This document shows, in pieces, positions 1,668-18,888 of a DNA stretch of 18,888 bases; the stretch's first letter is position 1; each line of letters starts with the position of its first letter. Source of the stretch: an uncultured Flavobacterium sp. (GTDB lineage Bacteria; Bacteroidota; Bacteroidia; Flavobacteriales; Flavobacteriaceae). The translations under genes and the position numbers were made by a program. The stretch is from positions 1-18,888 of the forward strand of contig NZ_CAMLRU010000029.1 of the NCBI RefSeq assembly GCF_946482535.1. Reading direction: 5' to 3'. The notes under the pieces are model-generated. The model made no database searches, was not told the DNA's origin, and worked only from the letters and a program-made list of their open reading frames with translations.

Positions 1668-1674
1668 AAAGAAA

Positions 1675-2227: not shown

Positions 2228-2234
2228 CAAAAAG

Positions 2235-2259: not shown

Positions 2260-2282
2260 CTATTTATATAAATGATGAAATT

Positions 2283-3149: not shown

Positions 3150-3154
3150 AACTA

Positions 3155-3180
3155 AAATCCCGAGCCATCGGGATTTTTTT
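3155..3180. terminator. Intrinsic terminator of greA-HIT, possibly bidirectional
   Basis: A perfect 9-bp stem AAATCCCGA (3155-3163) with TCGGGATTT (3168-3176) has loop GCCA and is followed by T to 3180. It sits between the HIT stop (3149) and the stop of the convergent kinase gene (3179). Its stem core AAATCCC/GGGATTT equals that of the hairpin in the greA leader. Confidence 0.9.
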
Positions 3181-4327: not shown

Positions 4328-4341
4328 GCTTAAATTTTTTA

Positions 4342-4371
4342 TAAATATAGACAAAACCGCCAAAAGTGCAA
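4342..4371 (-). promoter_or_regulatory. Possible promoter of the histidine kinase gene
   Basis: Reading the minus strand, TTG (4371-4369) and TATATTTA (4349-4342) are 19 bp apart; the second differs from TAnnTTTG at one position. The leader before the ATG at 4327 would be very short. If correct it excludes the upstream TTG start at 4363. Confidence 0.3.
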
Positions 4372-4383
4372 GACGATTTTGGT

Positions 4384-4434
4384 TTAGCCCCGATGGGCGT
4401 GGTACCGTGTATAACAGACAGCGGGAAAATGGCC
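4384..4434. other. C/G-rich structured element in a divergent spacer
   Basis: In an AT-rich 175-bp spacer this stretch is locally rich in C and G. It contains a small hairpin GCCC-CGAT-GGGC (4387-4398), the palindrome GGTACC (4401-4406), and CGGG (4422-4425), which could pair with CCCG at 4389-4392. The opening TAGCCCCGAT and the closing AGCGGG resemble an intergenic motif I associate from memory with Flavobacterium genomes. That resemblance is unverified. It encodes no convincing protein. Confidence 0.3.
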
Positions 4435-4479
4435 GCCAAGAATGCCCGAACCTTTCGCTCCTGAAATCAATAAAAATTG

Positions 4480-4487
4480 TATTTTTG
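4480..4487 (+). promoter_or_regulatory. -7 element ahead of the flavin reductase gene
   Basis: TATTTTTG matches TAnnTTTG and lies 16 bp before the ATG at 4503, which would give a very short leader. No good TTG occurs at the right distance upstream, so this is a half-supported promoter. Confidence 0.4.
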
Positions 4488-4502
4488 GGAAAAACAAAAT
4501 AT

Positions 4503-5378: not shown

Positions 5379-5380
5379 TT

Positions 5381-5758
5381 ATGGAAGTTACCGGAAAAAT
5401 TAAAGTGATTAATCCTGAGCAACAAGTGAGTGCCAGTTTTAGAAAAAGAGAATTAGTTGTGGCTACAGAAGAGCAATATCCACAATTTATCAGCATCAAT
5501 TTTGTGCAAGATAAGTGTGATTTATTGAACAACTATAATGTGGGTGAAGCGGTAAAAGTTTCCATCAACTTAAGAGGAAGAGAATGGGTAAATCCGCAAG
5601 GAGAAACCAAATATTTCAACGATATTCAAGGTTGGAGAATTGAGAAAATGCAAGTGGAAGCACCGGCTGCTCCTGGTATGGCACCAATGCCGCCGGCTGA
5701 AGCGTTTGCTCCGGCCACCAACTTTAATGAAGAAGAACACGACGATTTACCTTTTTAA
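5381..5758 (+). CDS. DUF3127 protein, SSB-like OB fold with an SSB-type acidic tip
   Basis: 125 residues from the ATG at 5381. Residues 1-92 match my knowledge of DUF3127: MEVTGKIKVINPEQQVS, SFRKRELVVATEEQYPQFI, and LRGREWVNPQGETKYFNDIQGWRI. The strand-rich pattern fits an OB-like fold related to single-stranded DNA-binding proteins. A flexible Ala/Pro-rich linker (94-112) then leads to the acidic end NEEEHDDLPF. That ending closely resembles the DDDIPF tip with which SSB recruits repair and replication proteins. Cytoplasmic; ssDNA binding is inferred, not proven. It is the second gene after the flavin reductase-like gene, 2 nt downstream; no functional link between the two is evident. A long hairpin covers the final codons. 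Confidence 0.88.
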   Translation: MEVTGKIKVINPEQQVSASFRKRELVVATEEQYPQFISINFVQDKCDLLNNYNVGEAVKVSINLRGREWVNPQGETKYFNDIQGWRIEKMQVEAPAAPGMAPMPPAEAFAPATNFNEEEHDDLPF

Positions 5759-5779
5759 TCTTTGATTAAAAGGTAAATC
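5744..5779 (+). terminator. Long stem-loop overlapping the end of the DUF3127 gene
   Basis: Bases 5744-5760 pair with 5764-5779 as 16 base pairs with one bulged T and a 3-nt loop. The stop codon TAA (5756-5758) is inside the stem. There is no long T run after it, so it may act as a weak terminator or as a 3'-end stabilising structure. Confidence 0.55.
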
Positions 5780-5796
5780 AAATACCAAATCATTAA

Positions 5797-5923
5797 ATAT
5801 CAAATTCCAAAAAAGTTTCAATTTTTCAAATCTCAATTTTCAAAGACTCAAAATGGGTTTAGGATGTTTGGAGTTTGAATTTTGAGGTTTCTTTGGAATT
5901 TTTTTTTCTTTGGAATTTGGGAT
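5797..5923. repeat. Imperfect inverted repeat built on CAAATTCCAA / TTGGAATTTG
   Basis: The 10-mer CAAATTCCAA (5801-5810) is exactly complementary to TTGGAATTTG (5910-5919), and two mismatches are found when the arms are extended to 14 bp (5797-5810 with 5910-5923). A further TTTGGAATTT copy at 5892-5901 and several TCAAATTT/TTTGAATTT-like stretches lie between. The same 10-mer occurs in the rpsB-tsf spacer. It fills most of the gap between the DUF3127 gene and aat. Confidence 0.65.
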
Positions 5924-5972
5924 TTAAAATTTGAACACGAGCGTCAGCGAACTGGCGAAGCAATTTCAACGT

Positions 5973-6614
5973 ATGTATTTTTTAACCAAAGATTTATATT
6001 TTCCACCGGTTGACGAAGCTTCTTATGAAGGCATTTTGGCTGTTGGCGGCGATTTGTCGACAGAGCGATTGTTGTTGGCCTATCGCAACGGGATATTTCC
6101 TTGGTTTAATGAAGACGAACCCATTCTTTGGTGGTCACCGCCGGAGCGAATGGTGGTGGTGCCGCAGTTGTACAAAGTCCCGAAGAGTATCCGTAATTTG
6201 TTGAATCGGCAGCTGTTTAAAGTCACTTTTAACCAAAATTTTGAAGAAGTCATTCGGCATTGCCAACAAATAGAACGCAAAGGACAAGAAGGTACTTGGA
6301 TTACTGAAGGCATCATTGAATCGTATACTAAATTGCACCAAATGGGTTTTGCTAAATCAATTGAAGTGTGGCAAAATGACGAACTGGTCGGCGGTTTGTA
6401 TGGCGTCGATTTAGGCCATGTTTTTTGTGGCGAAAGCATGTTTTCGAAAGTGTCGAATGCGAGTAAGGTTGCCTTTGTGACTTTGGTTCAATATTTAAAA
6501 GAGCACAATTATAAATTACTCGATTGCCAAATTCACAATGAGTATTTGGAACAATTAGGCGCTTTTGAAATTTCGCGCGATACTTTTATCAAAGTATTAA
6601 AATCTGCCAACTGA
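5973..6614 (+). CDS. aat: Leucyl/phenylalanyl-tRNA--protein transferase
   Basis: 213 residues from the ATG at 5973. A TTG at 5931 would add 14 residues that do not belong to the family (normal proteins begin close to the FPPVDEA segment), so the ATG is preferred. The enzyme transfers Leu or Phe from tRNA to proteins with an N-terminal Lys or Arg, marking them for ClpS/ClpAP degradation (N-degron pathway); cytoplasmic. Family signatures are GILAVGGDLS (20-29), GIFPWF (40-45), WWSPPERMV (53-61), GTWIT (107-111), ELVGGLYGV (137-145), CGESMFS (152-158) with Glu154, NASK (162-165), and DCQ (185-187). The family has Arg after a single Pro-x in WWSP-xPR; here it is PPER, a minor variant. The gene converges on tag with only 17 bp between stops. 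Confidence 0.96.
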   Translation: MYFLTKDLYFPPVDEASYEGILAVGGDLSTERLLLAYRNGIFPWFNEDEPILWWSPPERMVVVPQLYKVPKSIRNLLNRQLFKVTFNQNFEEVIRHCQQIERKGQEGTWITEGIIESYTKLHQMGFAKSIEVWQNDELVGGLYGVDLGHVFCGESMFSKVSNASKVAFVTLVQYLKEHNYKLLDCQIHNEYLEQLGAFEISRDTFIKVLKSAN

Positions 6615-6628
6615 CCACTGCCAACTGA
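6604..6628. repeat. Short direct repeat CTGCCAACTGA over the aat stop codon
   Basis: CTGCCAACTGA occurs at 6604-6614 and again at 6618-6628, with CCA between. The first copy supplies the last aat codons (SAN-stop). The second fills the gap before the tag stop. Confidence 0.6.
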
Positions 6629-6631
6629 TTA

Positions 6632-7192
6632 CTATTTCCTCTTCCAGCAATCTTCTAAGTGATCATTCACCATTCCGGTGGCTTGCATGTGTGCGTAAAC
6701 TACAGTAGAACCGACAAACTTAAACCCGCGCTTTTTTAAATCTTTGCTGATTTCGTCTGAAAGCGGCGTTGTGGCTTGGATATCGCTTAATTTTTTGATG
6801 TTGTTTTCGATGGGTTTTCCACCGGTGAAATTCCAAATGTATTTGGAGAAAGAACCGAATTCTTCCTGAACTTTCATAAAAGCAATGGCATTGGCAATCG
6901 TTCCTTTGATTTTTAGGCCGTTGCGAATGATGCCGGCGTCTTGCATAAGTTCGGCTACTTTGTCTTCGTTGTATTGGGCTACTTTTTTGTAATCGAATTG
7001 GTCAAAGGCATTGCGAAAGTTGTCTCTTTTTTTCAAAATGGTGTACCAACTTAGCCCGGCTTGAAAAGTTTCCAAAACCAAAAACTCGAATAATTTGTCG
7101 TCATCATAAACCGGATTTCCCCATTCGTTGTCGTGGTAATCGCGGTACAAATCGTCTTTTTCGCACCAAGCGCAGCGTATTTTATTGTCCAT
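6632..7192 (-). CDS. tag: DNA-3-methyladenine glycosylase I
   Basis: 186 residues, the expected length. It excises 3-methyladenine from alkylated DNA in the first step of base excision repair. The zinc ligands that pin the N- and C-termini are present: C7 (RCAWC), H20 (DYHDNEWG), H178 and C182 (NDHLEDCW). The base-recognition segment LVLETFQAGLSWYTILKKRDNFR (about 38-60) includes Glu41, equivalent to the E. coli residue that contacts 3-methyladenine, and Trp49. The stop is TAG. The ATG at 7192 lies inside the 3' end of the upstream yhhQ gene (11-bp overlap), so the two are cotranscribed; the pairing looks positional rather than functional. Confidence 0.97.
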   Translation of the reverse strand: MDNKIRCAWCEKDDLYRDYHDNEWGNPVYDDDKLFEFLVLETFQAGLSWYTILKKRDNFRNAFDQFDYKKVAQYNEDKVAELMQDAGIIRNGLKIKGTIANAIAFMKVQEEFGSFSKYIWNFTGGKPIENNIKKLSDIQATTPLSDEISKDLKKRGFKFVGSTVVYAHMQATGMVNDHLEDCWKRK

Positions 7193-7832
7193 CTTTGGTA
7201 ATGTATTTTTGAATTACGTAATGTCCTAAATAAATGAATGGCGTCATGCCGACAGCTATAATTAATTTAACTGTATAACCCGTCAATCCTGAAATGATAT
7301 AGGTTTTGGTGTCCATAATTCCGGGCAACCAAAAAGCGATGCCTAACACTATAAAACTGTCGAAAAACTGAGAGATTACGGTTGAACCGGTACTTCTGAG
7401 CCAAATCATTTTATTTCCCGTTCTTCTTTTGACAAAATGAAAAATGGTGACATCAATTAATTGCGAAGCCAGAAAGGCGATGATACTGCCCACAATAATC
7501 AATTGGCTTTGCCCAAACACGGCATTGAATTGTTCCGAAGAAACCGAGCTTATTCCGGTAGACGGAATTTGCATGGCAAAATATAGGATAAAAAAGGTGT
7601 AAGCGATTAATCCGGCGGTGATGAAGGAAAGTTTTCTTACGCCTTTCTCGCCAAAATATTCATTGATTAAATCGGTGGTAACAAAAACGATAGGCCAGGG
7701 TAAAATGCCTATGCTCATTACGGCTGAGCCTACGTCGATAAGTTTTCCGCCAATTAATTCTGCAACGATGGCATTGGTGATGAAGATGCCAGCGAGTACG
7801 ACATAAACGGTGTCTTTTTTGGATTGGAACAT
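7182..7832 (-). CDS. yhhQ: Queuosine precursor transporter, YhhQ/DUF165 family
   Basis: 216 residues with about six hydrophobic helices. Family signatures are WPIVFVTTDLINEYFGEKGVRK (about 46-67), SQLIDVTIFHFVKRRTG (about 123-139) and WLRSTGSTVISQFFDSFIVLGIAF (about 144-167). Members of this family take up queuosine precursors (preQ0/preQ1 or the queuine base) across the inner membrane for tRNA modification. Substrate choice among these cannot be read from the sequence. It is the first gene of a two-gene unit, its 3' end overlapping tag by 11 bp. No preQ1 riboswitch is visible in the short leader. Confidence 0.92.
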   Translation of the reverse strand: MFQSKKDTVYVVLAGIFITNAIVAELIGGKLIDVGSAVMSIGILPWPIVFVTTDLINEYFGEKGVRKLSFITAGLIAYTFFILYFAMQIPSTGISSVSSEQFNAVFGQSQLIIVGSIIAFLASQLIDVTIFHFVKRRTGNKMIWLRSTGSTVISQFFDSFIVLGIAFWLPGIMDTKTYIISGLTGYTVKLIIAVGMTPFIYLGHYVIQKYITKDGQ

Positions 7833-7859
7833 GGGTTTTGATTTACATACCTAATAAAT

Positions 7860-7867
7860 CAAATGTA
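7860..7867 (-). promoter_or_regulatory. -7 element ahead of yhhQ-tag
   Basis: The minus strand reads TACATTTG here, a match to TAnnTTTG, 27 bp upstream of the yhhQ ATG. No correctly spaced TTG -33 is seen, so the call rests on the -7 match and position only. Confidence 0.4.
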
Positions 7868-7880
7868 CAGTTTTTTGGGA

Positions 7881-7918
7881 AAAGAAAAAACCTCGATTCA
7901 AAGAAGAACCGAGGTTTT
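7881..7918 (-). terminator. Intrinsic terminator after tsf
   Basis: The stem pairs 7887-7899 with 7906-7918 (AAAACCTCG-TTC type, one A-C mismatch at 7896/7909) around a 6-nt loop. On the minus strand it is followed by a T-rich tract (complement of 7881-7890). It lies about 35 bp beyond the tsf stop and ends the ribosomal block. Confidence 0.85.
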
Positions 7919-7951
7919 AATATGGTGAATTAATAATTTTAATTCATAGGA

Positions 7952-8920
7952 TTATCCCAAAGAAACTCTTTTGAAACCAGTGATTTCAACGTTGAAACCT
8001 TTAACATAATCACCTACTTTTTTACTGTCATCTTTGATGAAGTTTTGATCCAATAAAGCTTTCTCTTGGTCTAAAGTAGTGTTGTCAGAAATAAAACGAG
8101 CTACTTTACCCGGAAGAATTTTATCCCAAATTTGTTCCGGTTTGCCTTCTGCTTTTAATTCCGCTTTAGCATCTTCTTCCGCTTGTTTTAAAACTTCAGG
8201 AGTTAATTGAGAGAAAGAGATATATTTAGGAACATTTTTCAAAGTTTTTCCTAAACGTTTCGCTTCTTCATTTTCTTTTTCGATTACAGCAATACGAGCA
8301 GCCAATTCAGAAGCAACGAATGCAGGATCAAAATCTTTGTAAGATAAAGTATCAGCTCCCATTGATGCTACTTGCATAGAGATGTCTTTAGTTAAAACAT
8401 CAGCATTGGCAACTGGTGCAGAAATAGCTGTTAAGGCAGCAATTTTATTTACGTGAACATAAGATCCAACGAAAGCGCCTTCTAAGATTTCAAAACCACC
8501 GATTTCGATTTTTTCACCGATAACACCGGTTTGCTCGATTAATTTTTCAGCTACAGTAATTCCGTTGAAATCTGAAGCTAAGAATTCTTCTTTAGAAGAG
8601 AAGTTGATTGCTTTTTCAACTAAAGCTTTAGCCAAGGCTACGAAAGCTTCATTTTTACCTACGAAATCTGTTTCGCAGTTTAAAGTGATGATCGCTCCTT
8701 TAGTATTGTCAGCATTGATAAAAGAAACAGCCGCGCCTTCAGAAGACTCACGGTCAGAACGGTTAGCAGCTACTTTTTGTCCTTTTTCTCTAAGGATTTG
8801 TATAGCTTTATCGAAATCTCCTTCCGCTTCAACTAAAGCTTTTTTACAGTCCATCATTCCGGCACCTGTAGTTTGTCTTAATTTGTTTACGTCTGCAGCA
8901 GTAATTGTGATTGTTGACAT
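7952..8920 (-). CDS. tsf: Translation elongation factor Ts
   Basis: 322 residues, longer than the roughly 283 of E. coli but in my knowledge usual for Bacteroidetes. EF-Ts is the guanine nucleotide exchange factor that regenerates EF-Tu-GTP. The N-terminal UBA-like domain has LRQTTGAGMMDCKKALVEA (14-32) and the core begins with ETDFVGKNE (83-91), both family signatures. Internal symmetry of the core subdomains is kept, and the C-terminal segment (about 225-322) carries the extra length, including KAELKAEGKPEQIWDKILPGK. It is the last gene of the block, after rpsB, with a 138-bp spacer that carries a long inverted repeat. Confidence 0.98.
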   Translation of the reverse strand: MSTITITAADVNKLRQTTGAGMMDCKKALVEAEGDFDKAIQILREKGQKVAANRSDRESSEGAAVSFINADNTKGAIITLNCETDFVGKNEAFVALAKALVEKAINFSSKEEFLASDFNGITVAEKLIEQTGVIGEKIEIGGFEILEGAFVGSYVHVNKIAALTAISAPVANADVLTKDISMQVASMGADTLSYKDFDPAFVASELAARIAVIEKENEEAKRLGKTLKNVPKYISFSQLTPEVLKQAEEDAKAELKAEGKPEQIWDKILPGKVARFISDNTTLDQEKALLDQNFIKDDSKKVGDYVKGFNVEITGFKRVSLG

Positions 8921-8960
8921 AATATTTTTTTCTTTTAAATTATTTTTTTTGTAAAAAAAG

Positions 8961-9050
8961 AAATTCCAATTCTAAAATCCCAAATTCCAATTTTATTAAA
9001 TCATCAAGATTGATAATTTTTTGGAACTTGGAATTTTATTCTTGGAATTT
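8961..9050. repeat. Long imperfect inverted repeat in the rpsB-tsf spacer
   Basis: The left arm contains AAATTCCAAT (8961-8970) and CAAATTCCAA (8981-8990). The right arm contains TTGGAACTTGGAATTTT (9021-9037) and CTTGGAATTT (9041-9050). The arms match over about 30 positions with a few mismatches, capped by ATCATCAAGATTGAT (9000-9014). The element would form a long hairpin in the rpsB-tsf mRNA. It shares an exact 10-mer with the repeat before aat. Confidence 0.7.
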
Positions 9051-9058
9051 AATCAGTT

Positions 9059-9865
9059 TTATTCTTCAGTTTGAGTTTCTGTAGCTTCTACTTCAGGAGC
9101 TGCTTCAACAGCCGGTGCTTCAGCAACAGCTACTTCTACAGTTTCTTCAGCGTCAGTTTCAGGAGCAGCGTCAGAAGTTCTGTTGGCTAATCCGTCTTTT
9201 ACAGCGTCAGTTACTAAAGATAAAATTTTATCAATTGATTTTGAAGCATCATCATTGGCCGGGATAACGTAATCTACTTCACGTGGATCAGAGTTAGTAT
9301 CAACCATTGCAAAAACTGGAATGTTTAATTTTTGTGCTTCTTTGATTGCGATGTGTTCAGCCTTGATATCTACTACGAATAAAGCAGCAGGAAGTCTTGA
9401 CATATCAGCGATAGAACCTAAGTTTTTCTCTAATTTGGCACGAAGACGATCTACTTGTAGTCTTTCTTTTTTAGACAAAGTCATGAAAGTTCCGTCTTTC
9501 TTCATTTTATCAATTGCAGCCATTTTTTTAACGGCTTTACGGATAGTAACGAAGTTAGTTAACATACCACCTGGCCATCTTTCAGTGATGTAAGGCATGT
9601 TACAAGCTTGTGCTTTTTCTGATACGATATCTTTAGCTTGTTTTTTGGTAGCTACGAAAAGTATTTTTCTACCTGAAGCAGCAATTTTTTTCAAAGCTTC
9701 GTTAGCTTCTTCGATTTTTGCTGCTGTTTTATATAGGTTAATGATGTGAATACCATTACGCTCCATATAAATGTAAGGAGCCATATTTGGATCCCACTTA
9801 CGAGTCATGTGTCCGAAGTGAACACCTGCTTCTAATAATTCTTTAACGTCAATTTTGTTTGCCAT
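9059..9865 (-). CDS. rpsB: 30S ribosomal protein S2
   Basis: 268 residues. Signatures are LLEAGVHFGHMTRKWDPNM (10-28), GIHIINLYKT (38-47), ITERWPGGMLTNF (93-105) and VDTNSDPREVDYVIPANDDA (188-207). S2 binds late to the small subunit at the head-body junction and helps recruit S1. Residues 231-268 form an acidic Ala/Glu/Val-rich tail beyond the globular core, common in this phylum. It precedes tsf, the classical rpsB-tsf order. The 174-bp spacer from rpsI has no exact TAnnTTTG motif, so it may be read from the rplM promoter or from a promoter I cannot recognise. Confidence 0.98.
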   Translation of the reverse strand: MANKIDVKELLEAGVHFGHMTRKWDPNMAPYIYMERNGIHIINLYKTAAKIEEANEALKKIAASGRKILFVATKKQAKDIVSEKAQACNMPYITERWPGGMLTNFVTIRKAVKKMAAIDKMKKDGTFMTLSKKERLQVDRLRAKLEKNLGSIADMSRLPAALFVVDIKAEHIAIKEAQKLNIPVFAMVDTNSDPREVDYVIPANDDASKSIDKILSLVTDAVKDGLANRTSDAAPETDAEETVEVAVAEAPAVEAAPEVEATETQTEE

Positions 9866-10039
9866 TGTGTAATAGTTTACGTTCCGTGATTAGCAATGTT
9901 CCTTTTGGCTTTTCGCTTTTAGGCTTCATTTAGATGCTAAACTAATTCCCTTTTTACAAGGAATATCGACAACTTTGTTTTAAATTCTAATTTAATTGTA
10001 AAAAATAATCTGAAAATATATTCTGGTAAATACCGAATA
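9866..10039 (-). other. rpsI-rpsB spacer with a small hairpin, possible S2 leader
   Basis: This 174-bp non-coding stretch holds a 7-bp hairpin with one bulged C (9945-9952 with 9958-9964, loop TTTAC), about 80 bp before the rpsB ATG. Nearer the gene is a run of AAAAG-type repeats on the minus strand (about 9902-9925). No T-run follows the hairpin, so it is not a clear terminator. An S2-binding autoregulatory leader is possible but unproven. Confidence 0.3.
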
Positions 10040-10426
10040 TTAACGTTTTGAGAATTGGAATCTCTTTCTCGCTTTTTTCTGACCGAATTTTTTACGTTCT
10101 ACCATTCTTGGATCTCTGGTTAATAATCCTTCTGGTTTTAGGATGCTTCTGTTTTCAGCTTCCACTTCACACATTGCTCTTGCAATAGCCATTCTCACAG
10201 CTTCTGCCTGACCTGTTGAACCACCACCGTATACGTTTACTTTTACGTCAAAGTTCTCAGCGTTGTTTGTCATAGACATTGGCTGTAATACTTTGTACTG
10301 TAAAGTAGCGGTTGGGAAGTAGTTGTTGAATTCTCTTTTGTTAACGGTAATTTTTCCAGTTCCTTCTGAAACATAAACACGTGCTACAGCACATTTTCTT
10401 CTACCGATTTTGTGAATAACTCCCAT
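10040..10426 (-). CDS. rpsI: 30S ribosomal protein S9
   Basis: 128 residues. The start IGRRKCAVARVYVSEGTGKI, the central signature GGGSTGQAEAVRMAIARAM and the basic C-terminus RDPRMVERKKFGQKKARKRFQFSKR are diagnostic. The terminal SKR tail reaches the P-site tRNA. The ATG shares one base with the rplM stop (TAATG), so the two are translationally coupled. Confidence 0.98.
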   Translation of the reverse strand: MGVIHKIGRRKCAVARVYVSEGTGKITVNKREFNNYFPTATLQYKVLQPMSMTNNAENFDVKVNVYGGGSTGQAEAVRMAIARAMCEVEAENRSILKPEGLLTRDPRMVERKKFGQKKARKRFQFSKR

Positions 10427-10881
10427 TACTTAAGATCGTTTAGGTTAACTGTTTTAGGTTTTTGAGCCTCATGTTTGTGCTCAGTTCCTACCACAACATT
10501 TAAATTTCTGAAAAGTTCTGCTCCTAATTTGTTTTTAGGTAACATTCCTTTCACTGCTTTTTCAACTAGCAAAGCAGGGTTTTTTGATTGCAAAACCTTT
10601 GCAGTCAAACTTCTTTGTCCTCCCGGGTAACCTGTGTGACGAATGTATGTCTTGTCGTCAAGTTTGTTACCGGTAAGGTTGATTTTGTCTGCGTTAATAA
10701 CAATTACGTTATCTCCACAGTCGACGTGAGGTGTGTAACTCGGCTTGTATTTTCCTCTCAAAAGCATCGCAACTTTTGAAGCAAAACGACCTAAGTTATG
10801 ACCTTCAGCATCTACAATGATCCACTCTTTTCCAGAAGTGGCCTTGGTTGTAGATTGTGTCTTGTAGCTTAATGCGTCCAT
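10426..10881 (-). CDS. rplM: 50S ribosomal protein L13
   Basis: 151 residues. Signatures are [25 protein letters not shown] (about 20-44), [20 protein letters not shown] (about 49-68), and [36 protein letters not shown]13 is an early-assembling large-subunit protein. It is the first gene of the rplM-rpsI-rpsB-tsf array, with a strong promoter upstream. The leader of about 35-40 nt contains a small hairpin TCCC-TTTATT-GGGA (10908-10921) that could be regulatory, but the evidence is slight. Confidence 0.98.
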
Positions 10882-10924
10882 AATTTATTTTTAATTAAAC
10901 ATTCCATTCCCAATAAAGGGAGTG

Positions 10925-10955
10925 CAAAAGTACAATTATTTATTAATAAAGCAAA
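10925..10955 (-). promoter_or_regulatory. Promoter of the rplM ribosomal operon
   Basis: On the minus strand TTTG (10955-10952) is followed after 19 bp by TACTTTTG (10932-10925), a full match to the flavobacterial -33/-7 consensus. The predicted start is near 10918-10921, about 40 nt before the rplM ATG. Confidence 0.8.
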
Positions 10956-11152
10956 TACCATTTTTCAAAATTTTTTGTAAAGCATCCTTTTTTGCTTAAA
11001 ATCCTTTAAATGAATAGCCTTAACAATAATACAACAACTGAATTTAGGAGCAAAACCTATCGGTATTTTCTTTGAATTGTGAGGAACTTTCATACTTGCA
11101 GTTGAGGAAGCACAAGAAATTTTACTATTTTTACACTTTAACCAACAAAAAA

Positions 11153-12178
11153 ATGAAATCGAAAGCCACTTTAAAACAAATTGCCAAAGAGTTGGGCGTT
11201 TCCGTTTCCACCGTATCAAAAGCTTTGAACGGAAGTCCGGAAATCAGTGAACCCACCAAGCAACGCGTACAGGAATATGCCAAATTGAAAAATTACAAAC
11301 CCAATGTAATTGGTCTGAACCTTAAAAACAGAAGAACCAAAACCATAGGCGTGATTATTCCGAACATTTTGAATTCATTTTTTGCCAAAGTGTTTAGCGG
11401 TATCGAAAAAGTAGCCGATGAAAAAGGATACAAGGTCATCACTTGTATTTCGAATGAATCCTTGGAAAAAGAAATCAATGCGCTGGAGATGTTGAGCAAC
11501 GGAACCATTGACGGTTTCATTCTTTCCATAGCCGAAGAATCTCAAAAGCTGCAAAAGTTCAGTCATTTTACTTCCATTATCAACGAAGGCACGCCTATTG
11601 TTATGTTCGACCGAATTGCCGATGAGGTGAATTGTGACAAAGTTATCGTAGACGATTTCGAATCGGCAGTAAATGCGATGGAGCATTTAATCAAAACCGG
11701 CTGTAAAAAAATCGCCTTGCTTTCCGCCATTGATAATTTGAGTGTAGGCAAGTTGAGAGCCAAAGGATTTTATAAAGCTTTGGAAAATCACGGACTAAAA
11801 GTGGACGAAAACTTAGTGATTTTGGCCAATGATAATGAAGAATTTAACTCAAAAATCGGAGGTTTTTTTATTAAAAACAAACCCGATGGCGTTTTTGCGT
11901 TAGACGAACATGCTTCTGTAACGGCAATGAAACTCGGTATTCAAAACGGCTATAAAATTCCGAAAGATCTGTCGATTATTGGTTTTGCCGATGGGGTTTG
12001 GTCACGCAGAATGACACCAAGTTTGTCAACAGTTAGCCAACATGGTCCGGAAATAGGTGAAGTAGCAGCACAGTTGCTAATCGATAAATTAGAAAGCGAA
12101 GAAGAAACGTTTACTTATACCACCACCACAATCAAAACGGAATTGAGACAAAGAGATTCTACAAAGAAATTATTCTAA
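11153..12178 (+). CDS. LacI-family transcriptional regulator
   Basis: 341 residues from the ATG at 11153. The frame is open 81 bp further upstream, but the LacI helix-turn-helix begins at once after this Met: TLKQIAKELGVSVSTVSKALNGSPEISEPTKQRV (about 5-38), followed by the hinge-like YKPNVIGLNLKNRRT. The rest is a periplasmic-binding-protein-like sensor domain: KTIGVIIPNILNSFFAKVFSGIE, IDGFILSIAEE, IVMFDRI, and LSIIGFADGVWSRRMTPSLSTVSQ. Family members repress or activate sugar-utilisation genes in response to a carbohydrate ligand. No sugar transporter or hydrolase is nearby, so target and ligand are unknown. It is divergent from rplM (271-bp spacer), and its 3' end overlaps the convergent methyltransferase gene by 20 bp. 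A TTTG-N18-TACTTG sequence about 11090-11120 is a weak promoter candidate. Confidence 0.95.
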   Translation: MKSKATLKQIAKELGVSVSTVSKALNGSPEISEPTKQRVQEYAKLKNYKPNVIGLNLKNRRTKTIGVIIPNILNSFFAKVFSGIEKVADEKGYKVITCISNESLEKEINALEMLSNGTIDGFILSIAEESQKLQKFSHFTSIINEGTPIVMFDRIADEVNCDKVIVDDFESAVNAMEHLIKTGCKKIALLSAIDNLSVGKLRAKGFYKALENHGLKVDENLVILANDNEEFNSKIGGFFIKNKPDGVFALDEHASVTAMKLGIQNGYKIPKDLSIIGFADGVWSRRMTPSLSTVSQHGPEIGEVAAQLLIDKLESEEETFTYTTTTIKTELRQRDSTKKLF

Positions 12179-12821
12179 AGATAGAATTGGTTTCGGCCAA
12201 ATCTTTCTTTTCTGAAACAAGCTCAAAAGCCATGGCATTTTTTACTGCGATGGCTTTTATTTTTTCAATGGCACAATCTTGCGAAAGAATCATAAAGCAG
12301 TTGGTTTTAGGCGATAGATAATCCGGTAACTGATGGAATAACTTTTCGAAATACTCAAAATTTTCCCCGCAAAACCAAGCTTGTTCTTTTACGTTTTTAG
12401 GAGATTTTGGATAATAGGGCGGATTGATAATGATATAATCAAAGGCACGATTTTTAATATTTCGGAACAAATCAGAATTAACGATTTCCATTTTTAAATG
12501 ATTTTTTTCTGAATTGGTAACCAAATAGTCTAAAGCGATTGGATTGATGTCGGAAGCGGTTACCAAAGCTTTTTTCTTCGCTGCTAAAAGCGAAATGATG
12601 CCACTGCCACAACCCAATTCTAAAAAGGTTTTGCTTTCCAAATCCATATCTTTTATAAAATCCAAAAGAATTTTAGTGCTGAAAGTCAGCTGAGGCGGAA
12701 AAACATCGGGGTGAATTTTTATCGAAATACCGTCATAAGTAAAATTCCTTGGTTTAGAATAGTACAAATTCAAACCAAACTTCAAAAAAGGATGCGATAT
12801 TTTTTTGAGAAACTTTCTCAT
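12159..12821 (-). CDS. SAM-dependent methyltransferase with NPPY motif
   Basis: 220 residues. The Rossmann core shows motif I FLELGCGSGIISLLAA (66-81), the acidic SAM-ribose contact SDIN (90-93) and motif IV IINPPYYP (131-138). The NPPY motif is typical of enzymes that methylate an amino nitrogen (PrmC/HemK, RsmC, TrmN6-like), so the substrate is probably an amine or amide, but PrmC and RsmC themselves have other N-terminal domains. The start follows the stop of the radical SAM gene with no gap, making it the last gene of the six-gene unit. The role could therefore be methylation of an aminosugar in the product, or unrelated housekeeping. Its 3' end overlaps the convergent LacI gene by 20 bp. 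Confidence 0.88.
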   Translation of the reverse strand: MRKFLKKISHPFLKFGLNLYYSKPRNFTYDGISIKIHPDVFPPQLTFSTKILLDFIKDMDLESKTFLELGCGSGIISLLAAKKKALVTASDINPIALDYLVTNSEKNHLKMEIVNSDLFRNIKNRAFDYIIINPPYYPKSPKNVKEQAWFCGENFEYFEKLFHQLPDYLSPKTNCFMILSQDCAIEKIKAIAVKNAMAFELVSEKKDLAETNSIFRIISL

Positions 12822-14345
12822 CTATTCTGAATAAAACCCTTCAATCTCCGGTTGACGATATTTCCAAAGTTTGTGCAAAGCCTTGATTTCATATGGATAA
12901 TGGTAAATCCCGGTTTTGTAACGCCAACCCGAAACCGATTGCAAAATAGTTTTTTTAAACCCGCGGATCCTAAAATCGGAAACCGTCGGATAATAGCCGT
13001 TCAATACTGTTTCAAAATTTTTAATGGTATCAATCATATAAGGTTTCAACCAAGGCGTCAATGGATTTTTGCGCAAATCGAAATTCTCCCAACTGGGCGA
13101 AATCCAATCTTCCAATTGTTTCGGAAACGAGAATCCGGCGTCGAGAATTTGTTGGTACAACTCAGAACCTTCCGTTGGCACCGGGCTAAACAAATAAATA
13201 ATGATTTCCGCATTCGGATTGATGGCTTTGATTTCTTTGATGAAATTGATGTCCCACAGAATTTGGTCATACACTTCTTTCTCCGTTTTGGCAGGCATTC
13301 CTAATACAAAAGACAATTCCGGAATGATATCCGCGTTTTTCATGCGCAGCACAAAATCTTTGATCATTTGTCCGGTTTGCGTTCCGCCTTTGTTCATTTG
13401 TTTCAGCACCGCGTCGTTTCCGGTTTCGGCACCGAGGAAAATCATTTTGCAACCTGCTTTTCGCATGAGTTTCAAATCGTCATCGCTATACATATTAATG
13501 GTGTCGATTCGGCCTTCGCCCCAATAACTGATGTTGTCGTTCATGATGAGTTCTGAAAACTCTAGTACTCGTTTTTTGGAAGTAAAGAAATTGTTGTCGT
13601 GAAATTCCACGGCGTCAATGTTGTACTTTTCTTTGAAATATTTGACATCTTCATAAATTCGGGCTGCCGACATACCTTTCCATTTGGCATTGTAAATGGG
13701 AACCACGGCGCAAAACGAACACGAAAACGGGCAACCCATACTCGAATGATAAGACAAAGTTTTATGGCCCATAAAGGTTTTGGCCAAATAATTTTTGACA
13801 GGATAAAACGAATTCAGATACGCATACGGAAACTTTGGTAAAGTGTCTTGGTCGAGCAAAGCTTCTACAGCGGTTTTGATGATTTCTCCTTTGTGGTCTT
13901 TGTAAATCAGGTTTTTAATGAAGAATATTTCTTCTTTTTTATTTTGTTCCAAAGCCGTAATCAACGACGGAAAAGCCACATCACCCGGACCATTGATGAT
14001 ATAATCCACCACGCCCGATTCGAGCGAAACTTTATATTGATTGGCCGCAAAATAACCGCCCCAAACCGTGATGGTTTCAGGATACAGTGCTTTAATTTTT
14101 TGGGTAAACGGAATTGCCTGACGCAATTGTGGTCCGGGCATTACGGTGGAACCAAAGTATTTGAACTCATCCGTTTTTAAATAACTCTCAATCGTTTCCC
14201 AAGGATTTTGTTCCAAATTGCCATCCACAAAAACATAGTCATATTGGCCATGAATAGAAGCGCCAACCTGCAAAATCGAATTGGGAATCCGATGCTTGCC
14301 GTTCGCACTTTTGGGATTGAATAAGATGATTTTAGGTAATGGCAT
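12822..14345 (-). CDS. B12-binding-type radical SAM protein (BchE-like class)
   Basis: 507 residues. An N-terminal Rossmann-like domain (about 4-135; PKIILFNPKS, STVMPGPQLR, TVWGGYFAA) has the layout of a cobalamin-binding domain. I find no DxHxxG lower-ligand motif; VDGNLEQ sits near the expected place, which suggests base-off cobalamin or loss of the cofactor. The radical SAM domain has the cluster motif C205-PFS-C209-SF-C212 preceded by SSMG, then VEFHDNNFF (247-255) and IFLGAETGN (302-310). The C-terminal 150 or so residues (from SPVPTEGSELYQQI) resemble the tail in this class. Such enzymes often methylate unactivated carbons or rearrange complex molecules. The ATG lies 14 bp inside the upstream fusion gene, so it belongs to the glycan operon. 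The substrate is unknown. Confidence 0.92.
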   Translation of the reverse strand: MPLPKIILFNPKSANGKHRIPNSILQVGASIHGQYDYVFVDGNLEQNPWETIESYLKTDEFKYFGSTVMPGPQLRQAIPFTQKIKALYPETITVWGGYFAANQYKVSLESGVVDYIINGPGDVAFPSLITALEQNKKEEIFFIKNLIYKDHKGEIIKTAVEALLDQDTLPKFPYAYLNSFYPVKNYLAKTFMGHKTLSYHSSMGCPFSCSFCAVVPIYNAKWKGMSAARIYEDVKYFKEKYNIDAVEFHDNNFFTSKKRVLEFSELIMNDNISYWGEGRIDTINMYSDDDLKLMRKAGCKMIFLGAETGNDAVLKQMNKGGTQTGQMIKDFVLRMKNADIIPELSFVLGMPAKTEKEVYDQILWDINFIKEIKAINPNAEIIIYLFSPVPTEGSELYQQILDAGFSFPKQLEDWISPSWENFDLRKNPLTPWLKPYMIDTIKNFETVLNGYYPTVSDFRIRGFKKTILQSVSGWRYKTGIYHYPYEIKALHKLWKYRQPEIEGFYSE

Positions 14346-16170
14346 AGCTTTTTACAAAAATATTTCCGTGTAATCTTTCGATGGGAAGTGATTGAATAAT
14401 TTTCTTTAGTTCTTCTCCCGTGCACCAATCCTGGTGTTGCAATTTTAAATGCTCATTCAAAATGTAATTGAAACGTACTTTTTCGTCATCCAGCAGGGAA
14501 ATGATTTTTATGGTTTCAGTAATGAATCCACCGGTAAATTCGAATTCCAGTATGGGAATTTTACTTTTCAAATGAGATAAAATTTCAAATTCATATCCTT
14601 CCACATCGATTTTACAATAATTGGGCAAACCATAGGTTTCAATTAAACTCTCGAGGCTTTTTACCGTTACCGTTTCTTTTGCATTCCATTGGATTTCATC
14701 ACCACTAAAGTAATTGATAAATGCTTTCGAAAGGGTTGCCACTTCACTGTGATTGGCTAAAAATAATTCTTTTTCTTCATTTTTGGCACCAACAGCAAAA
14801 GGATAATAGTCAAAGAAAGGAAATTCTTTTTTTAGTTCTTTTAAACTTTCTTGGCAAGCAGTTTGTGGTTCAAAGGCAATTACTTTGGCACCAAGTTCTA
14901 AAAATAAGCGACTTTTTTTTCCGGTATTAGCCCCAATATCAAAGCACAAATCACCCGGAGAAATGAATTGGGCATAGAAATCATCCTGAGGAAATATCTT
15001 ATGGAGACGATTTATCCAACTTGTTTTTTTAAATAAAAATAAAATCAGCAACTGTGACAAAGCACTTCCGGCCAAAGCACCGCTGATTCCAAAACCTAAT
15101 TTCAACAGCCAATAGGAAAGAACCGCATTCAATATCACCCCAATCAACAAATTGTAAAAAACCAATTTTTCTCGGTTTTTCTTGAATAAGTTTACAATAT
15201 CCAACCCGTACAAATAAGAAGGATAAACATAAACAAAGGCTATCCAATAGAAGGATAATCCAAATGAAATTCGGACAGCAAAATTTAGCAGTAAGCCTAT
15301 TGCTAAGAGTCCTGCCGGCACAATTATTAACCCTAATAGGGCTAAAGTTTTTTTTGATTTTTGAATGACCTCTGTTGTTGTTCGATAGAATAATTTGGTA
15401 AATGGAGTGTAGATAAATGCAGTAATCGACATGACAAAAACCAAAAGACTGTTGATGATTTGATATTCCGCTGTGATGGTCTTATTGCCAAAAGATTCTA
15501 GGATGTATACGTCTATTTTAGAACTCAAAAAGCCAAGGACTGATAGTAAAAAAAAGGAAAAAGCCGCTTTATAACCCTTAAAAGAAAAATAGAGATTTTG
15601 CCCAATAAAGAAATTCCTGAACAGTAAGAAATACAGAATTCCTTTTGCGAATTGGTACAAACTGTAAAAGACTATTAAGTCATAAAGAGTAATACCCGTT
15701 TTAAAAAGGTAAAAACAAATCACAAATAGTCCAAAACAAAGAGTTTCAAGGACTATTGAAATCTTGATTTTTTTTTGGTAAACCAATAAAGCTTCTACAG
15801 CATGGGTTAAGTATCGTCCCATAAGCCAAAGGAAAAGCCAAATCCCGAAATTCAAGGGAAATAACAACAAGCCAATTCCAAAACATAACACTACCAATGG
15901 AAATCGACTTACGGTATTTTCGGTAAAATATACTTTTATTTTCGCAGGATTAGTACTGAATTCTCGAAGTAAATATTCTTTATTGCCCCAATTGATCAAT
16001 TGTAAAGCAAGTAAGGTAAACAACAAGACTGAAACAAATGAACCCCAAAGTAATTTAGAAGAATAGAATATGACCAAGAACGGAATCACCATATTATACA
16101 CTGCAAGCAAAACTTGTCGCAAAGTGTTTACGGAAATTAAAGTGATTCTATGAGTGGATTTATTTTTCAA
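14332..16170 (-). CDS. Fusion of a Wzx-like flippase and an FkbM-family methyltransferase
   Basis: 612 residues in one open frame. Residues about 10-382 are membrane-embedded, with some 12 hydrophobic helices, in the pattern of polysaccharide flippases of the MOP superfamily (oligosaccharide-lipid exporters). After a short linker (383-405) comes a complete soluble FkbM methyltransferase: LCFDIGANTGKKSRLFLELGAKVIAFEP (408-435) as SAM motif and KIDVEGYEFEILSHL (520-534) as the FkbM signature. FkbM enzymes O-methylate sugar or polyketide hydroxyls. The start is a TTG whose last two bases overlap the upstream TGA stop (TTGA, 4 bp). The next Met (27) would cut the first helix, so TTG is preferred. 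The domain order suggests coupling of export with methylation of the exported glycan (inference). No frameshift or in-frame stop separates the halves. Confidence 0.9.
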   Translation of the reverse strand: MKNKSTHRITLISVNTLRQVLLAVYNMVIPFLVIFYSSKLLWGSFVSVLLFTLLALQLINWGNKEYLLREFSTNPAKIKVYFTENTVSRFPLVVLCFGIGLLLFPLNFGIWLFLWLMGRYLTHAVEALLVYQKKIKISIVLETLCFGLFVICFYLFKTGITLYDLIVFYSLYQFAKGILYFLLFRNFFIGQNLYFSFKGYKAAFSFFLLSVLGFLSSKIDVYILESFGNKTITAEYQIINSLLVFVMSITAFIYTPFTKLFYRTTTEVIQKSKKTLALLGLIIVPAGLLAIGLLLNFAVRISFGLSFYWIAFVYVYPSYLYGLDIVNLFKKNREKLVFYNLLIGVILNAVLSYWLLKLGFGISGALAGSALSQLLILFLFKKTSWINRLHKIFPQDDFYAQFISPGDLCFDIGANTGKKSRLFLELGAKVIAFEPQTACQESLKELKKEFPFFDYYPFAVGAKNEEKELFLANHSEVATLSKAFINYFSGDEIQWNAKETVTVKSLESLIETYGLPNYCKIDVEGYEFEILSHLKSKIPILEFEFTGGFITETIKIISLLDDEKVRFNYILNEHLKLQHQDWCTGEELKKIIQSLPIERLHGNIFVKSYAIT

Positions 16171-17735
16171 TGGAGTTGTTTTTTTCTGAGGGTAAAAAAA
16201 CCAATCCCTCGGTCGTAATCCGAAAGATAAAGGATGTATTGGTGGTCTATAAGCATGGGTTTCCGTTTATGGCTTTTGTCAAAAGTAAGCTGTTGGTTTT
16301 TGTAAAATATTTGATTGTTTTTTAACTCAAGCGGTTGAAAGGATTTGATATTTGGATTCCATAAGATTGCTTTTTCTTCTCCATCCCAGAAGCTGCATTT
16401 AATATAGTTTTCGTTGTTTTCATTATTTTTCACAATCTCGTAGTCATAAGCTAATATCAGTTTCTCTTTAAATAAAGCCTTTGATTCTACGACTTCCTTT
16501 TTTTGAAAAACCAACATCAAAACCATCGGAATCAATGATGCAAGAAAAACTGTTTTCCAACGAATACTTTTGTAAGTCAAAGCAATCATCCCTACGAAAA
16601 ACGCCAATGATGCAAATAATCTCAGATAAGAAAAAGGATAAGTATTGTCAATGAAAAACGAAAGCGGAACGTTGTTGATTAAAAATAAAGTTCCAAACAA
16701 CAGCGCTTTTTTTGCCAACGACAGATCAATTTTAAGCAAAGTCAAAAAAGGAAACAACAGTAAAATAAAGGAGTAAGTACTTCCGTAAGGCGAAAGGATT
16801 AGCATGGCTAAAATCCAATAAGCGAAAACAAACAATGCATTCGAAGTTTTTCTGGAAACAAAATAACCAATGGCCAAGACACCGATTTTAAAAGCCATTA
16901 GTACGGCGGAAAACAAAATAGGGTAATTGAAAAAGGCCTTCGGATTTTCTACAGTATCAAATACTAAAAGCTCTTTTAAAAACATAAAAACCGATTGGTA
17001 ATTGCTCACAAAAGCTGTCGCAATTTCACCTTTAGACGCCTTGGATAAAACTTCCTTGAGATAAAAAATCCAAAGGTCAAATCCGTTGAATAAAACAGAA
17101 ATGCCCAAAAAAGAAAGACAAAAAATCATCAAATAGGATAAAGGCTTCCATTCTTTTTTAAAGACTAAAAGCGCGACCAATAACACCGGAAATACTTTGA
17201 GTAAAATGGCCAAACTCCAAAAAAGCGACATCAATTTCCATTGCTCTTTTTCATAAGCCAACCAACCTTCAGCCAATAAAAAGAACAACAGAAAATAGAC
17301 TTGTCCGAACAACAGATTGTTTTTTATCGGTACCAAAAATAAAATCGGAATCAGCAATGCATATTTGAAGTCAATTTTATAATGGCTGAATAATCTGTGA
17401 ATACTGAAAACAAAAAGGACTATCGAAATACAATTGAAAATCAATTTGGCTGTAGCCAAAGGAAAAATAGAAAAGCCAGAAAACAAAACCGCTAAAAATG
17501 GTGTATTCGGGGCATAACTGGCAAAAATTCCGGAATGGCCCAAATCAAAAATGGCTTTGTTGAATTTATATGGAAAATAGATGTCTGAATTGAAATGTCC
17601 GTCTGCCAAGAACTTTCCGCCAAAATAATAATTGGCAAAATCGTGAACCGGAAACGCTGTAGCTTTGAATACAAAATAAACGCAAAGCAAAACCAGCGGA
17701 AGCAAAGGATAATATTTTAAAACGACACTTTTCAT
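16167..17735 (-). CDS. GT87-like integral membrane glycosyltransferase (GT-C fold)
   Basis: 522 residues. About 11 hydrophobic helices fill residues 10-410. The first periplasmic loop has HDFANYYFGGKFLADG (31-46) with Asp32, the likely catalytic acid of GT-C enzymes. A second family segment is NNLLFGQVYFLLFFLL (139-154) and a third ILLKVFPVLL (177-186). These fit DUF2029/GT87, whose known members transfer mannose from polyprenyl-phosphate-mannose. Residues 412-522 are a soluble, beta-rich extension ending in ILYLSDYDRGIGFFTLRK, not part of the GT-C core. The ATG overlaps the GT2 stop (ATGA, 4 bp), and the gene's own stop overlaps the next start. A GT2 that could make the lipid-linked donor is directly upstream. 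Donor and acceptor sugars are unknown. Confidence 0.88.
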   Translation of the reverse strand: MKSVVLKYYPLLPLVLLCVYFVFKATAFPVHDFANYYFGGKFLADGHFNSDIYFPYKFNKAIFDLGHSGIFASYAPNTPFLAVLFSGFSIFPLATAKLIFNCISIVLFVFSIHRLFSHYKIDFKYALLIPILFLVPIKNNLLFGQVYFLLFFLLAEGWLAYEKEQWKLMSLFWSLAILLKVFPVLLVALLVFKKEWKPLSYLMIFCLSFLGISVLFNGFDLWIFYLKEVLSKASKGEIATAFVSNYQSVFMFLKELLVFDTVENPKAFFNYPILFSAVLMAFKIGVLAIGYFVSRKTSNALFVFAYWILAMLILSPYGSTYSFILLLFPFLTLLKIDLSLAKKALLFGTLFLINNVPLSFFIDNTYPFSYLRLFASLAFFVGMIALTYKSIRWKTVFLASLIPMVLMLVFQKKEVVESKALFKEKLILAYDYEIVKNNENNENYIKCSFWDGEEKAILWNPNIKSFQPLELKNNQIFYKNQQLTFDKSHKRKPMLIDHQYILYLSDYDRGIGFFTLRKKQLH

Positions 17736-18478
17736 AGGTTTTTAAAAAGGGGAAAAGAAACCAATTTTGATCGCTGTAAAAAATAGGAAACGGAAACCCG
17801 CAAAACGCCAAAACCATAAACCAAACTCCTTTGAAAATTTATCGAGCTCGATTCTTCAAAATACTTTGCCGGACAAGATATTTCGCCAATTCGGGCTTTG
17901 AGAAAACAGCATTGCGCCAAAATTTCATTGTCGAAAATAAAATCATCCGAGTTGTTTTTGAAGTCAATTCTTTCCAGCAATCTCGCATCAAAACAACGGT
18001 ATCCGGTGTGGTATTCGGAGAGTTTTTGATTCATCAAAACATTTTGAACGAAAGTCAAAATCCTATTCGAAACATATTTATACAATGGCATGCCGCCTTG
18101 CAAAGCGCCTTTGCTTAAAATTCGGGAACCCAATACCACATCGTATAAATTATTGGCCACCAAAGTACACATGGCCGGAATCAATTTAGGTGTGTATTGG
18201 TAATCGGGATGCAACATCACTATGATGTCGGCGTTAAGTTCTAAGGCTTTTTGATAACACGACTTTTGATTGGCGCCATAGCCTTTGTTTTGGTCATGGA
18301 TAATGATGTGTTTAATGCCTATTTCTTTCGCAATTGTGATGGTGTCATCATGGCTGAAATCATCGGTGATAATAACGTCATCCACCACATCAAACGGAAT
18401 CTCTTCAAAGGTTTTTTGAAGTGTTTTGGCCGCATTATAAGCCGGTAGGACGACGATTATTTTTTTGTTATTAATCAT
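17732..18478 (-). CDS. GT2 glycosyltransferase, DPM1-like (polyprenyl-phosphate sugar synthase)
   Basis: 248 residues, GT-A fold. KIIVVLPAYNAAKTLQKTFEEIP (6-28) is the nucleotide-binding start, VIITDDFSHDDT (35-46) has the DD that positions UDP/GDP, and HPDYQY (90-95) holds the metal-binding Asp92 (the DxD-like site of this subfamily). NKGYGANQKSCYQKAL (64-79) is typical of dolichyl/undecaprenyl-phosphate mannose or glucose synthases. There is no C-terminal membrane segment, unlike GtrB or ArnC types, so it would act at the cytoplasmic face. The likely role is to make a polyprenyl-phosphate-linked sugar used by the GT87-like enzyme next door. The ATG overlaps the preceding gene by 8 bp and the stop overlaps the next start by 4 bp. 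Confidence 0.93.
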   Translation of the reverse strand: MINNKKIIVVLPAYNAAKTLQKTFEEIPFDVVDDVIITDDFSHDDTITIAKEIGIKHIIIHDQNKGYGANQKSCYQKALELNADIIVMLHPDYQYTPKLIPAMCTLVANNLYDVVLGSRILSKGALQGGMPLYKYVSNRILTFVQNVLMNQKLSEYHTGYRCFDARLLERIDFKNNSDDFIFDNEILAQCCFLKARIGEISCPAKYFEESSSINFQRSLVYGFGVLRVSVSYFLQRSKLVSFPLFKNL

Positions 18479-18866
18479 TCAGATGGTTGACTTCAATAGT
18501 TGATGCTTCTCTGACGTTGGTGGAAACACTTAATCCTTGAAATGGCGCTAAAGTTTCTACCTCATGGCGATAGTAAAGATTTCCCAAAAACGGAAACTCA
18601 TCATACACATGCGTCGGCAAACCCGAAAGTAAACTTTGTACTTGTGCCAATGGCATATTCCATTCTGCGCTCAATCGCTCCGCCGATGGTTCCATAAAAG
18701 AAATGTAGAGCAATTCGGTTAAAGTGTGTTGTTGGGTTTGGGCAAAATCGACTCCGTCCGTCAGGGCTAATTTTTGGGCTCGGTTGGTTTCGCGGTAGCC
18801 AATTAAAGTACTTTGAAAATCGGCATACGTCAAATAACCGGCATAATCGTTTTGCGGCGTAAACAT
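18471..18866 (-). CDS. Unrecognised protein, first visible gene of the glycan operon (start uncertain)
   Basis: 131 residues from the ATG at 18866; the frame stays open to the window edge (upstream residues HESTINQ), so the true start could lie outside. The sequence is hydrophilic, without signal peptide or membrane helix. The first part has YAGYLTYADFQSTLIGYRETNRAQKLAL; the middle HTLTELLYISFMEPSAERLSAEWNMPLAQVQSLLSGLP looks largely helical; the end is EFPFLGNLYYRHEVETLAPF then a charged tail. I do not recognise a family. The 7-base stretch before the ATG, rich in TCAAC/ATCAAC words, resembles non-coding spacer rather than protein, which favours the ATG. The 3' end overlaps the GT2 start by 8 bp, so it belongs to the same transcript. 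Confidence 0.6.
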   Translation of the reverse strand: MFTPQNDYAGYLTYADFQSTLIGYRETNRAQKLALTDGVDFAQTQQHTLTELLYISFMEPSAERLSAEWNMPLAQVQSLLSGLPTHVYDEFPFLGNLYYRHEVETLAPFQGLSVSTNVREASTIEVNHLND

Positions 18867-18888
18867 TTGGTTGATAGTTGATTCATGA

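Follow-up and report, generated by a model that had tools for sequence, protein, structure and literature searches.

Modification systems of the ArnC/ArnT type combine a polyprenyl-phosphate sugar synthase with a GT-C transferase, and GT-C enzymes use polyprenyl-phosphate sugars on the outer side. In the Bacteroidota, the locus of fragilis glycosylation (LFG) and homologous outer-glycan loci comprise a flippase and glycosyltransferases and have conserved ends and a variable middle (PMC12871550). The O-antigen locus of Flavobacterium psychrophilum has a Wzx-type flippase, wzy, glycosyltransferases, sugar-nucleotide genes, and strain-specific decoration genes (PMC6519341); the word “radical” is absent from that paper. 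Here we describe the end of a DNA stretch of an uncultured Flavobacterium sp. (GCF_946482535.1, contig NZ_CAMLRU010000029.1, positions 1 to 18,888 of the forward strand). The whole stretch of 18,888 nucleotides (nt) is referred to as the window. It carries six minus-strand genes (Table 1), which encode the lipoprotein CHES, a DPM1-like GT2 glycosyltransferase, a GT87 enzyme of the GT-C kind, a flippase-FkbM fusion, a B12-type radical S-adenosylmethionine (SAM) enzyme (rSAM-C), and a methyltransferase with an NPPY motif.

Like ArnC/ArnT, the window has a DPM1-like GT2 gene adjoining that of a GT-C enzyme, but with GT87 in the place of ArnT and in the company of a Wzx-type flippase and a B12-type radical SAM core. 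LFG resembles the window genes and their relatives in its flippase, glycosyltransferases, conserved ends, and variable middle; it is flanked by metG, however, instead of polA and LacI/rplM, and differs in the constant B12-type radical SAM enzymes and methyltransferases found here. Assignment to an LFG-type O-glycosylation locus was therefore rejected, given the LacI/rplM flank in the window and a 3' end of rSAM-C and methyltransferase in 80 out of 80 loci. The F. psychrophilum O-antigen locus is similar with respect to the Wzx-type flippase, glycosyltransferases, and decoration genes, whereas its wzy and sugar-nucleotide genes have no recognised counterpart among the window proteins scanned. 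B12-binding radical SAM enzymes of the BchE/HpnJ type appear to share the domain layout of the enzymes described below, but occur in another genomic context.

On the basis of comparative sequence analysis, we lean towards the view that the window genes form the right end of a genomic island, modular in build and devoted to a lipid-linked glycan or glycolipid, in which a nearly constant B12-radical core would surround exchangeable cargo. In Flavobacterium and relatives, the probable role of such an island is to assemble a small surface glycan, export it, and add decorations. The core consists of the nucleotidyltransferase c19, three B12-type radical SAM enzymes (rSAM-A, rSAM-B, and rSAM-C), a class-I methyltransferase, and the NPPY methyltransferase; the cargo consists of at most one recognised exporter, of GT-C enzymes and cytoplasmic glycosyltransferases of a single kind each, and of decorating enzymes. 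A preliminary description had proposed a candidate six-gene pathway, which is not upheld, as the unit extends beyond the window with additional core genes. Its more general view, that of a glycan-type pathway in which flippase, GT-C enzyme, and methyltransferases take part, agrees with the tight spacing and the conserved context of the genes.

Relatives were collected by a scan of one genome per species, and the best 80 of 133 rSAM-C loci were gene-called. All 80 contain both rSAM-C and the NPPY methyltransferase, with the latter directly after the former in 78; in locus L079 a flippase gene lies between them. Upstream core genes, i.e., rSAM-A, rSAM-B, and a class-I methyltransferase (cluster c8 or c15), were found in the 45 loci whose flank reaches that far, 18 of which also have c19. 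The CxxxCxxC motif is present in rSAM-C of 80 out of 80 relatives and the NPPY motif in 79 out of 80 methyltransferases, and 16 of the 18 c19 frames have a GS(L/I)SKG...D(I/V)D motif. In comparisons of six random pairs each, rSAM-A and rSAM-B are approximately 31-35% identical, and either is approximately 23-27% identical to rSAM-C. The best NCBIfam matches of all three are of the BchE/HpnJ type (110-156 bits versus a BchE cut-off of 481; for rSAM-C, BchE 109.6 and HpnJ 98.5 bits, the latter with a cut-off of 577.6), and they fall far under every NCBIfam cut-off shown. The B12-binding domain of the window rSAM-C scores 26.7 bits, below the Pfam cut-off of 32.1, but is listed for many close homologues. 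Among solved structures rSAM-C has a single relative, an apramycin biosynthesis oxidoreductase (E 2.4e-7). In case of the NPPY methyltransferase, PrmC (75.4 bits, cut-off 199.1) and PRK14968 (112 bits, cut-off 162) scored below their cut-offs. The sequence search with c19 gave a best E of 0.18, and Foldseek with the c19 model retrieved MNT-type and other nucleotidyltransferases with a best E of 6e-3; as none was found at E<=0.001, no substrate was assigned. For rSAM-C of L130 and L132, the genome search counts one TAA within each match.

In the 45 complete intervals, contents were classed by clusters of open reading frames (ORFs), which owe their names to Pfam scans of representative members. 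The exporter slot holds one recognised Wzx in 34, one ABC exporter in 8, and neither in 3, namely L079, with a Wzx just beyond rSAM-C, and L053 and L080, with none. GT87 occupies the GT-C slot in 24 intervals and a PMT_2-type enzyme in 11, never both together. Similarly, the cytoplasmic slot is filled by a DPM1-like GT2 in 21 and by a GT4 in 17 intervals, with neither in 7 and no co-occurrence; all eight ABC exporters are found with GT4 only. Decorating enzymes comprise FkbM (13 intervals), SPASM radical SAM (11), other methyltransferases (15), sulfotransferase (8), and arylsulfotransferase (4), and 15 intervals contain ORFs left unclassified. The contiguous order CHES-GT2-GT87-Wzx occurs in 15 of the 80 loci. 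Scattering of the genes in relatives had been named as the observation that would speak against a common pathway. The loci are modular rather than scattered: the ends are constant and the middle is exchanged.

The spacing described earlier for the six genes was confirmed, with overlaps of 8, 4, 4, and 14 nt and one 0-nt junction. Among adjacent same-strand pairs of relatives, the 4-nt overlap of GT2 and GT87 recurs in 10 out of 14, that of GT87 and Wzx in 8 out of 16, and the 8-nt overlap of CHES and GT2 in 5 out of 23.

Core and cargo also differ in their degree of conservation. For locus pairs with at least 85% identical rSAM-C, median identities are 87.5 for rSAM-C, 88.7 for L13, 89.9 for S2, 81.9 for GT2, 78.5 for rSAM-B, 75.1 for rSAM-A, 61.6 for CHES, 60.9 for the NPPY methyltransferase, 58.0 for the c8 methyltransferase, 50.2 for GT87, and 29.0 for Wzx. 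Thus rSAM-C is conserved about as much as ribosomal protein L13, while Wzx is not. In the 38 of the 80 loci used for trees and distances, rSAM-C distances track those of L13+S9+S2 (Spearman 0.80, Mantel p 0.001); the correlation is lower for the NPPY methyltransferase (0.55) and slight for Wzx (0.26, 25 of these loci). Because rSAM-C distances follow the ribosomal ones, the sequences are consistent with a core inherited mainly by vertical descent and often lost. Against this, the trees conflict in places with good support, with L058 (Winogradskyella flava) outside its genus and the Kordia sequences grouping with Winogradskyella in the rSAM-C tree but not in the ribosomal tree, and therefore some exchange has occurred. 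A contig of a metagenome-assembled genome titled Bifidobacterium breve (L019) has a Flavobacterium-type island and rplM, with rSAM-C 88% and L13 91% identical to those of the window, and is probably a mislabelled bin.

rSAM-C was found in 11 of 199 genomes of a family panel, in 25 of 249 genomes of the genus, and in 17 of 395 genomes of a phylum sample at E<=1e-60. In the family panel, rSAM-B occurs in the same 11 genomes and as a cut match in G115, and c19 in all 11 and 5 others, while the NPPY methyltransferase is confined to 10 of the 11. polA is located directly before c19 in 6 of the 7 island loci reaching polA. On the other side, the NPPY methyltransferase is followed by LacI in 20 of the 80 loci, by rplM in 5, and by assorted genes in the others, and rplM lies within the fetched flank in 45. 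For the empty site, 14 of 29 rplM loci were extended, picked from Flavobacterium genomes without an rSAM-C match and with LacI or c61/c83 beside rplM. In 12 of these 14, polA is situated beside LacI, nine with a gap of 71-245 nt and three with a small ORF between. This places the island between polA and LacI/rplM and the LacI-family gene on the chromosomal side.

Except for G115, the genomes with additional c19 (L206, L207, L208, and L209) have a smaller sister island of c19, rSAM-A, a methyltransferase, a polytopic protein, GT2, and a protein of the PNP_UDP_1 phosphorylase superfamily. The polytopic protein has no Pfam hit and was taken for a flippase. The sister island is located between polA and rplM in L206 and L209 and has other flanks in L207 and L208. 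In L207 and L209, its methyltransferase frame has approximately 517 amino acids (aa), as if two were fused.

Distant Bacteroidota were represented by 14 of the 15 phylum-sample rSAM-C genomes below 70% identity, G635 being left out at a contig edge. In these loci (rSAM-C 44-66% identical), gene order and flanks differ. Nevertheless, by best BLAST match within a 19.5-kb stretch, a c15-type methyltransferase is present in 14 out of 14, rSAM-A or rSAM-B in 13, and c19 in 11, while an exporter was recognised in 8; a polytopic 457-aa protein in L181 and L182 may be another exporter. Since the gene set stays together despite this reshuffling, the distant loci are in our view the best evidence that the core genes function together. 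Amidohydrolase genes were observed beside or near methyltransferase genes, near rSAM-C, in L182 (7014-8922), L183 (10492-12379), and L186 (11225-12400).

Several observations weigh against the modular island. Ten of the 45 complete intervals lack a recognised GT-C enzyme and three a recognised exporter, 6 of the 11 rSAM-C genomes of the family panel lack CHES, and one of them (G105) lacks the NPPY methyltransferase. The seventh polA-reaching locus, L018, has other ORFs after polA, and 2 of the 14 island-less genomes (L187 and L189) show no polA at the expected site. The slot classes depend on our own ORF clustering, and the Fisher values for slot associations are inflated by relatedness, as shared ancestry is ignored. 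Furthermore, C-methylation by the B12-type enzymes is a guess, since these match no named family.

The first gene had been listed as encoding an unknown protein, but proved to be the 3' end of a lipoprotein gene of approximately 373 aa, the frame being open to the window end. The window opens with the residues HES, the end of a CXXCH haem-c motif seen in homologues (e.g., KPAKCMWCHES), and 8 of 9 homologues read extend upstream into this motif. Therefore the ATG at 18866, start of the predicted ORF 18471-18866, represents an internal methionine. CXXCH is present in 37 of 38 CHES frames of relatives, and the remaining frame is cut ahead of the motif. Full-length relatives have a near-invariant, lipobox-like cysteine at residue 16. 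CHES has no Pfam hit, and Foldseek returned nothing at E<=0.001; from cytochrome P460 and cytochrome c'-beta it differs as a lipoprotein with extra N- and C-terminal parts encoded beside a GT87 gene. Within the complete intervals CHES accompanies GT87 in 24 out of 24 cases, PMT_2 in 2 out of 11, and others in 3 out of 10. In the family panel it occurs in 5 of the 11 rSAM-C genomes and in none of the rest. In case of L205, the genome search counts one TAA within the CHES match.

The domain assignments GT2, GT87, FkbM C-terminus, radical SAM, and MTS/HemK-kind methyltransferase with NPPY were reproduced by Pfam/NCBIfam. For GT2 the best NCBIfam models, AglJ (63.6 bits, cut-off 325) and PpgS (55.9 bits, cut-off 370), remain far under cut-off. 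The flippase-FkbM fusion (ORF 14332-16170, nine hydrophobic segments) is genuine, albeit uncommon. Among the best 120 matches listed, at least 12 full-length proteins (575-623 aa) are fused in this way, including one identical to that of the window, and because of these an artefact was rejected. The fused form was seen in none of the 80 gene-called loci, where flippase and FkbM are separate genes; the FkbM part is 81% identical to the stand-alone gene of L001. No Pfam family was matched by the flippase part itself, but its relatives bear the name O-antigen export protein, and PF01943 is present in two of those listed.

From these data the following route may be proposed. On the cytoplasmic side, the core would make a constant scaffold or sugar borne on a lipid, or would radically modify it, perhaps by C-methylation. 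FkbM, joined to the flippase, would methylate the scaffold ahead of export, and the flippase would turn the methylated product over. GT2 would make a polyprenyl-phosphate sugar, which GT87 would add on the outer face, and the haem-c lipoprotein CHES would act outside together with GT87. The preliminary description had let the flipped product be methylated. This is unlikely: as rSAM-C and the NPPY methyltransferase have no membrane segment by hydropathy and SAM is cytoplasmic, methylation probably precedes flipping. For B12-type radical SAM enzymes, unactivated carbon is a frequent, though not invariable, site of methylation. The usual target of NPPY enzymes is a planar nitrogen in a protein or nucleobase, and by analogy the NPPY methyltransferase may act on an amide or base rather than on a sugar hydroxyl.

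It is tempting to go further and to suppose a new Bacteroidota system, in which a single constant lipid or sugar scaffold, of unusual and new chemistry, would be the joint product of B12-type radical SAM enzymes, methyltransferases, and a nucleotidyltransferase. Each lineage would assemble its own glycans on this scaffold and flip them for completion outside, with CHES serving the GT87 step. We regard this wider proposal as tentative and rather doubtful. The nucleotidyltransferase c19 together with the phosphorylase-superfamily gene of the sister island hints at the possible involvement of a nucleoside-derived group. The literature searched, which leaves most subscription papers outside its coverage, yielded no account of the island. 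If the reading as a modular island is right, three unassigned B12-type radical SAM families would gain a common context, a glycan pathway, with natural variation showing its interchangeable parts; comparison of lipid-linked products between genomes with the island and those with the empty polA-LacI site would offer a direct route to the radical SAM substrate; a GT-C glycosyltransferase would be the unexpected partner of a haem-c lipoprotein; and a methyltransferase would be physically tied to a flippase.

Three other explanations were considered. The island might belong to the general protein O-glycosylation of the Bacteroidota, as an outer-glycan locus or as the core-glycan machinery. The logic of conserved ends, variable glycosyltransferases, and a flippase is shared, and a review states that the core machinery still awaits identification and that those glycans commonly bear methyl groups (PMC12871550). 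According to the same review, however, metG and wzx stand at the start of the known loci and two glycosyltransferases at their end (PMC12871550), while here the flanks are polA and LacI/rplM. With rSAM-C in just 11 of 199 family genomes, the island is moreover too patchy for a general core pathway, and we judge this explanation unlikely.

Similarly improbable is a small exopolysaccharide, capsule, or O-antigen locus of the Wzx/Wzy type with unusual decorations. Wzx or ABC exporters, several glycosyltransferases, and the sulfo-, acetyl-, and carbamoyltransferases of relatives would suit such a locus, as would EpsG-like proteins, below the Pfam cut-off, in 6 of the 45 complete intervals. But the conserved part is the radical SAM core and not an export system, and among the window proteins scanned with Pfam/NCBIfam, neither a Wzy polymerase nor an outer-membrane export gene nor, as already noted in the preliminary description, a sugar-nucleotide gene was recognised, for which reason a capsule or O-antigen locus was rejected.

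A third possibility, very unlikely in our judgement, is that rSAM-C and the NPPY methyltransferase have a ribosomal protein or RNA as their substrate and lie beside a glycan cassette by chance. The usual planar-nitrogen substrates of NPPY enzymes, the adjoining rplM-rpsI-rpsB-tsf genes, and the L13-like conservation of rSAM-C would suit it, but are outweighed by the absence of both genes from nearly all family-panel genomes, by other Bacteroidota, where rSAM-C is accompanied by the same core and by glycosyltransferases although the gene order differs, and by the flippase gene between the two in L079.

Table 1. Features of the window from the island end to its chromosomal flank.
Feature	Position	Strand	Evidence
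CHES haem-c CXXCH lipoprotein gene, 3' end, truncated by window edge inside CXXCH	18471..18888	-	open frame; CXXCH of homologues at same place
GT2 glycosyltransferase, DPM1-like, probable polyprenyl-phosphate sugar synthase	17732..18478	-	PF00535 61.6 bits; zero membrane segments by hydropathy
GT87 family GT-C glycosyltransferase	16167..17735	-	PF09594 75.9 bits (cut-off 25); 11 hydrophobic segments
Wzx-type flippase part of fusion, TTG start	14995..16170	-	58.7% identity to stand-alone L009 flippase, residues 1-384
FkbM methyltransferase part of fusion	14332..14994	-	PF05050 42.8 bits (cut-off 22.7); TIGR01444 74.1 (cut-off 37.7)
rSAM-C, B12-type radical SAM enzyme, island core gene	12822..14345	-	PF04055 58.4 bits
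NPPY methyltransferase, HemK-like, last island gene	12159..12821	-	PF05175 64.7 bits
LacI-family regulator, flank, not island	11072..12178	+	PF00356, PF13377; adjoins polA in island-less genomes
rplM, flank	10426..10881	-	PF00572

Promoter-like sites number 33, compared to 23.7 (standard deviation 3.8) in shuffles, and terminator-like sites 6, compared to 7.4 (standard deviation 2.9); no conclusion was drawn from these counts. The LacI-family gene and the NPPY methyltransferase gene overlap at their 3' ends by 20 nt, and 6 of 20 such pairs have an overlap of equal length. By our own reading, the LacI-family gene is likely to start at ATG 11150 and not at TTG 11072. Positions 1-11000 have the appearance of ordinary Flavobacterium chromosome, with the end of a TonB-type receptor gene, greA, a HIT protein, a histidine kinase, aat, tag, a YhhQ-like gene, tsf, rpsB, rpsI, and rplM, all named by our own reading except rplM.

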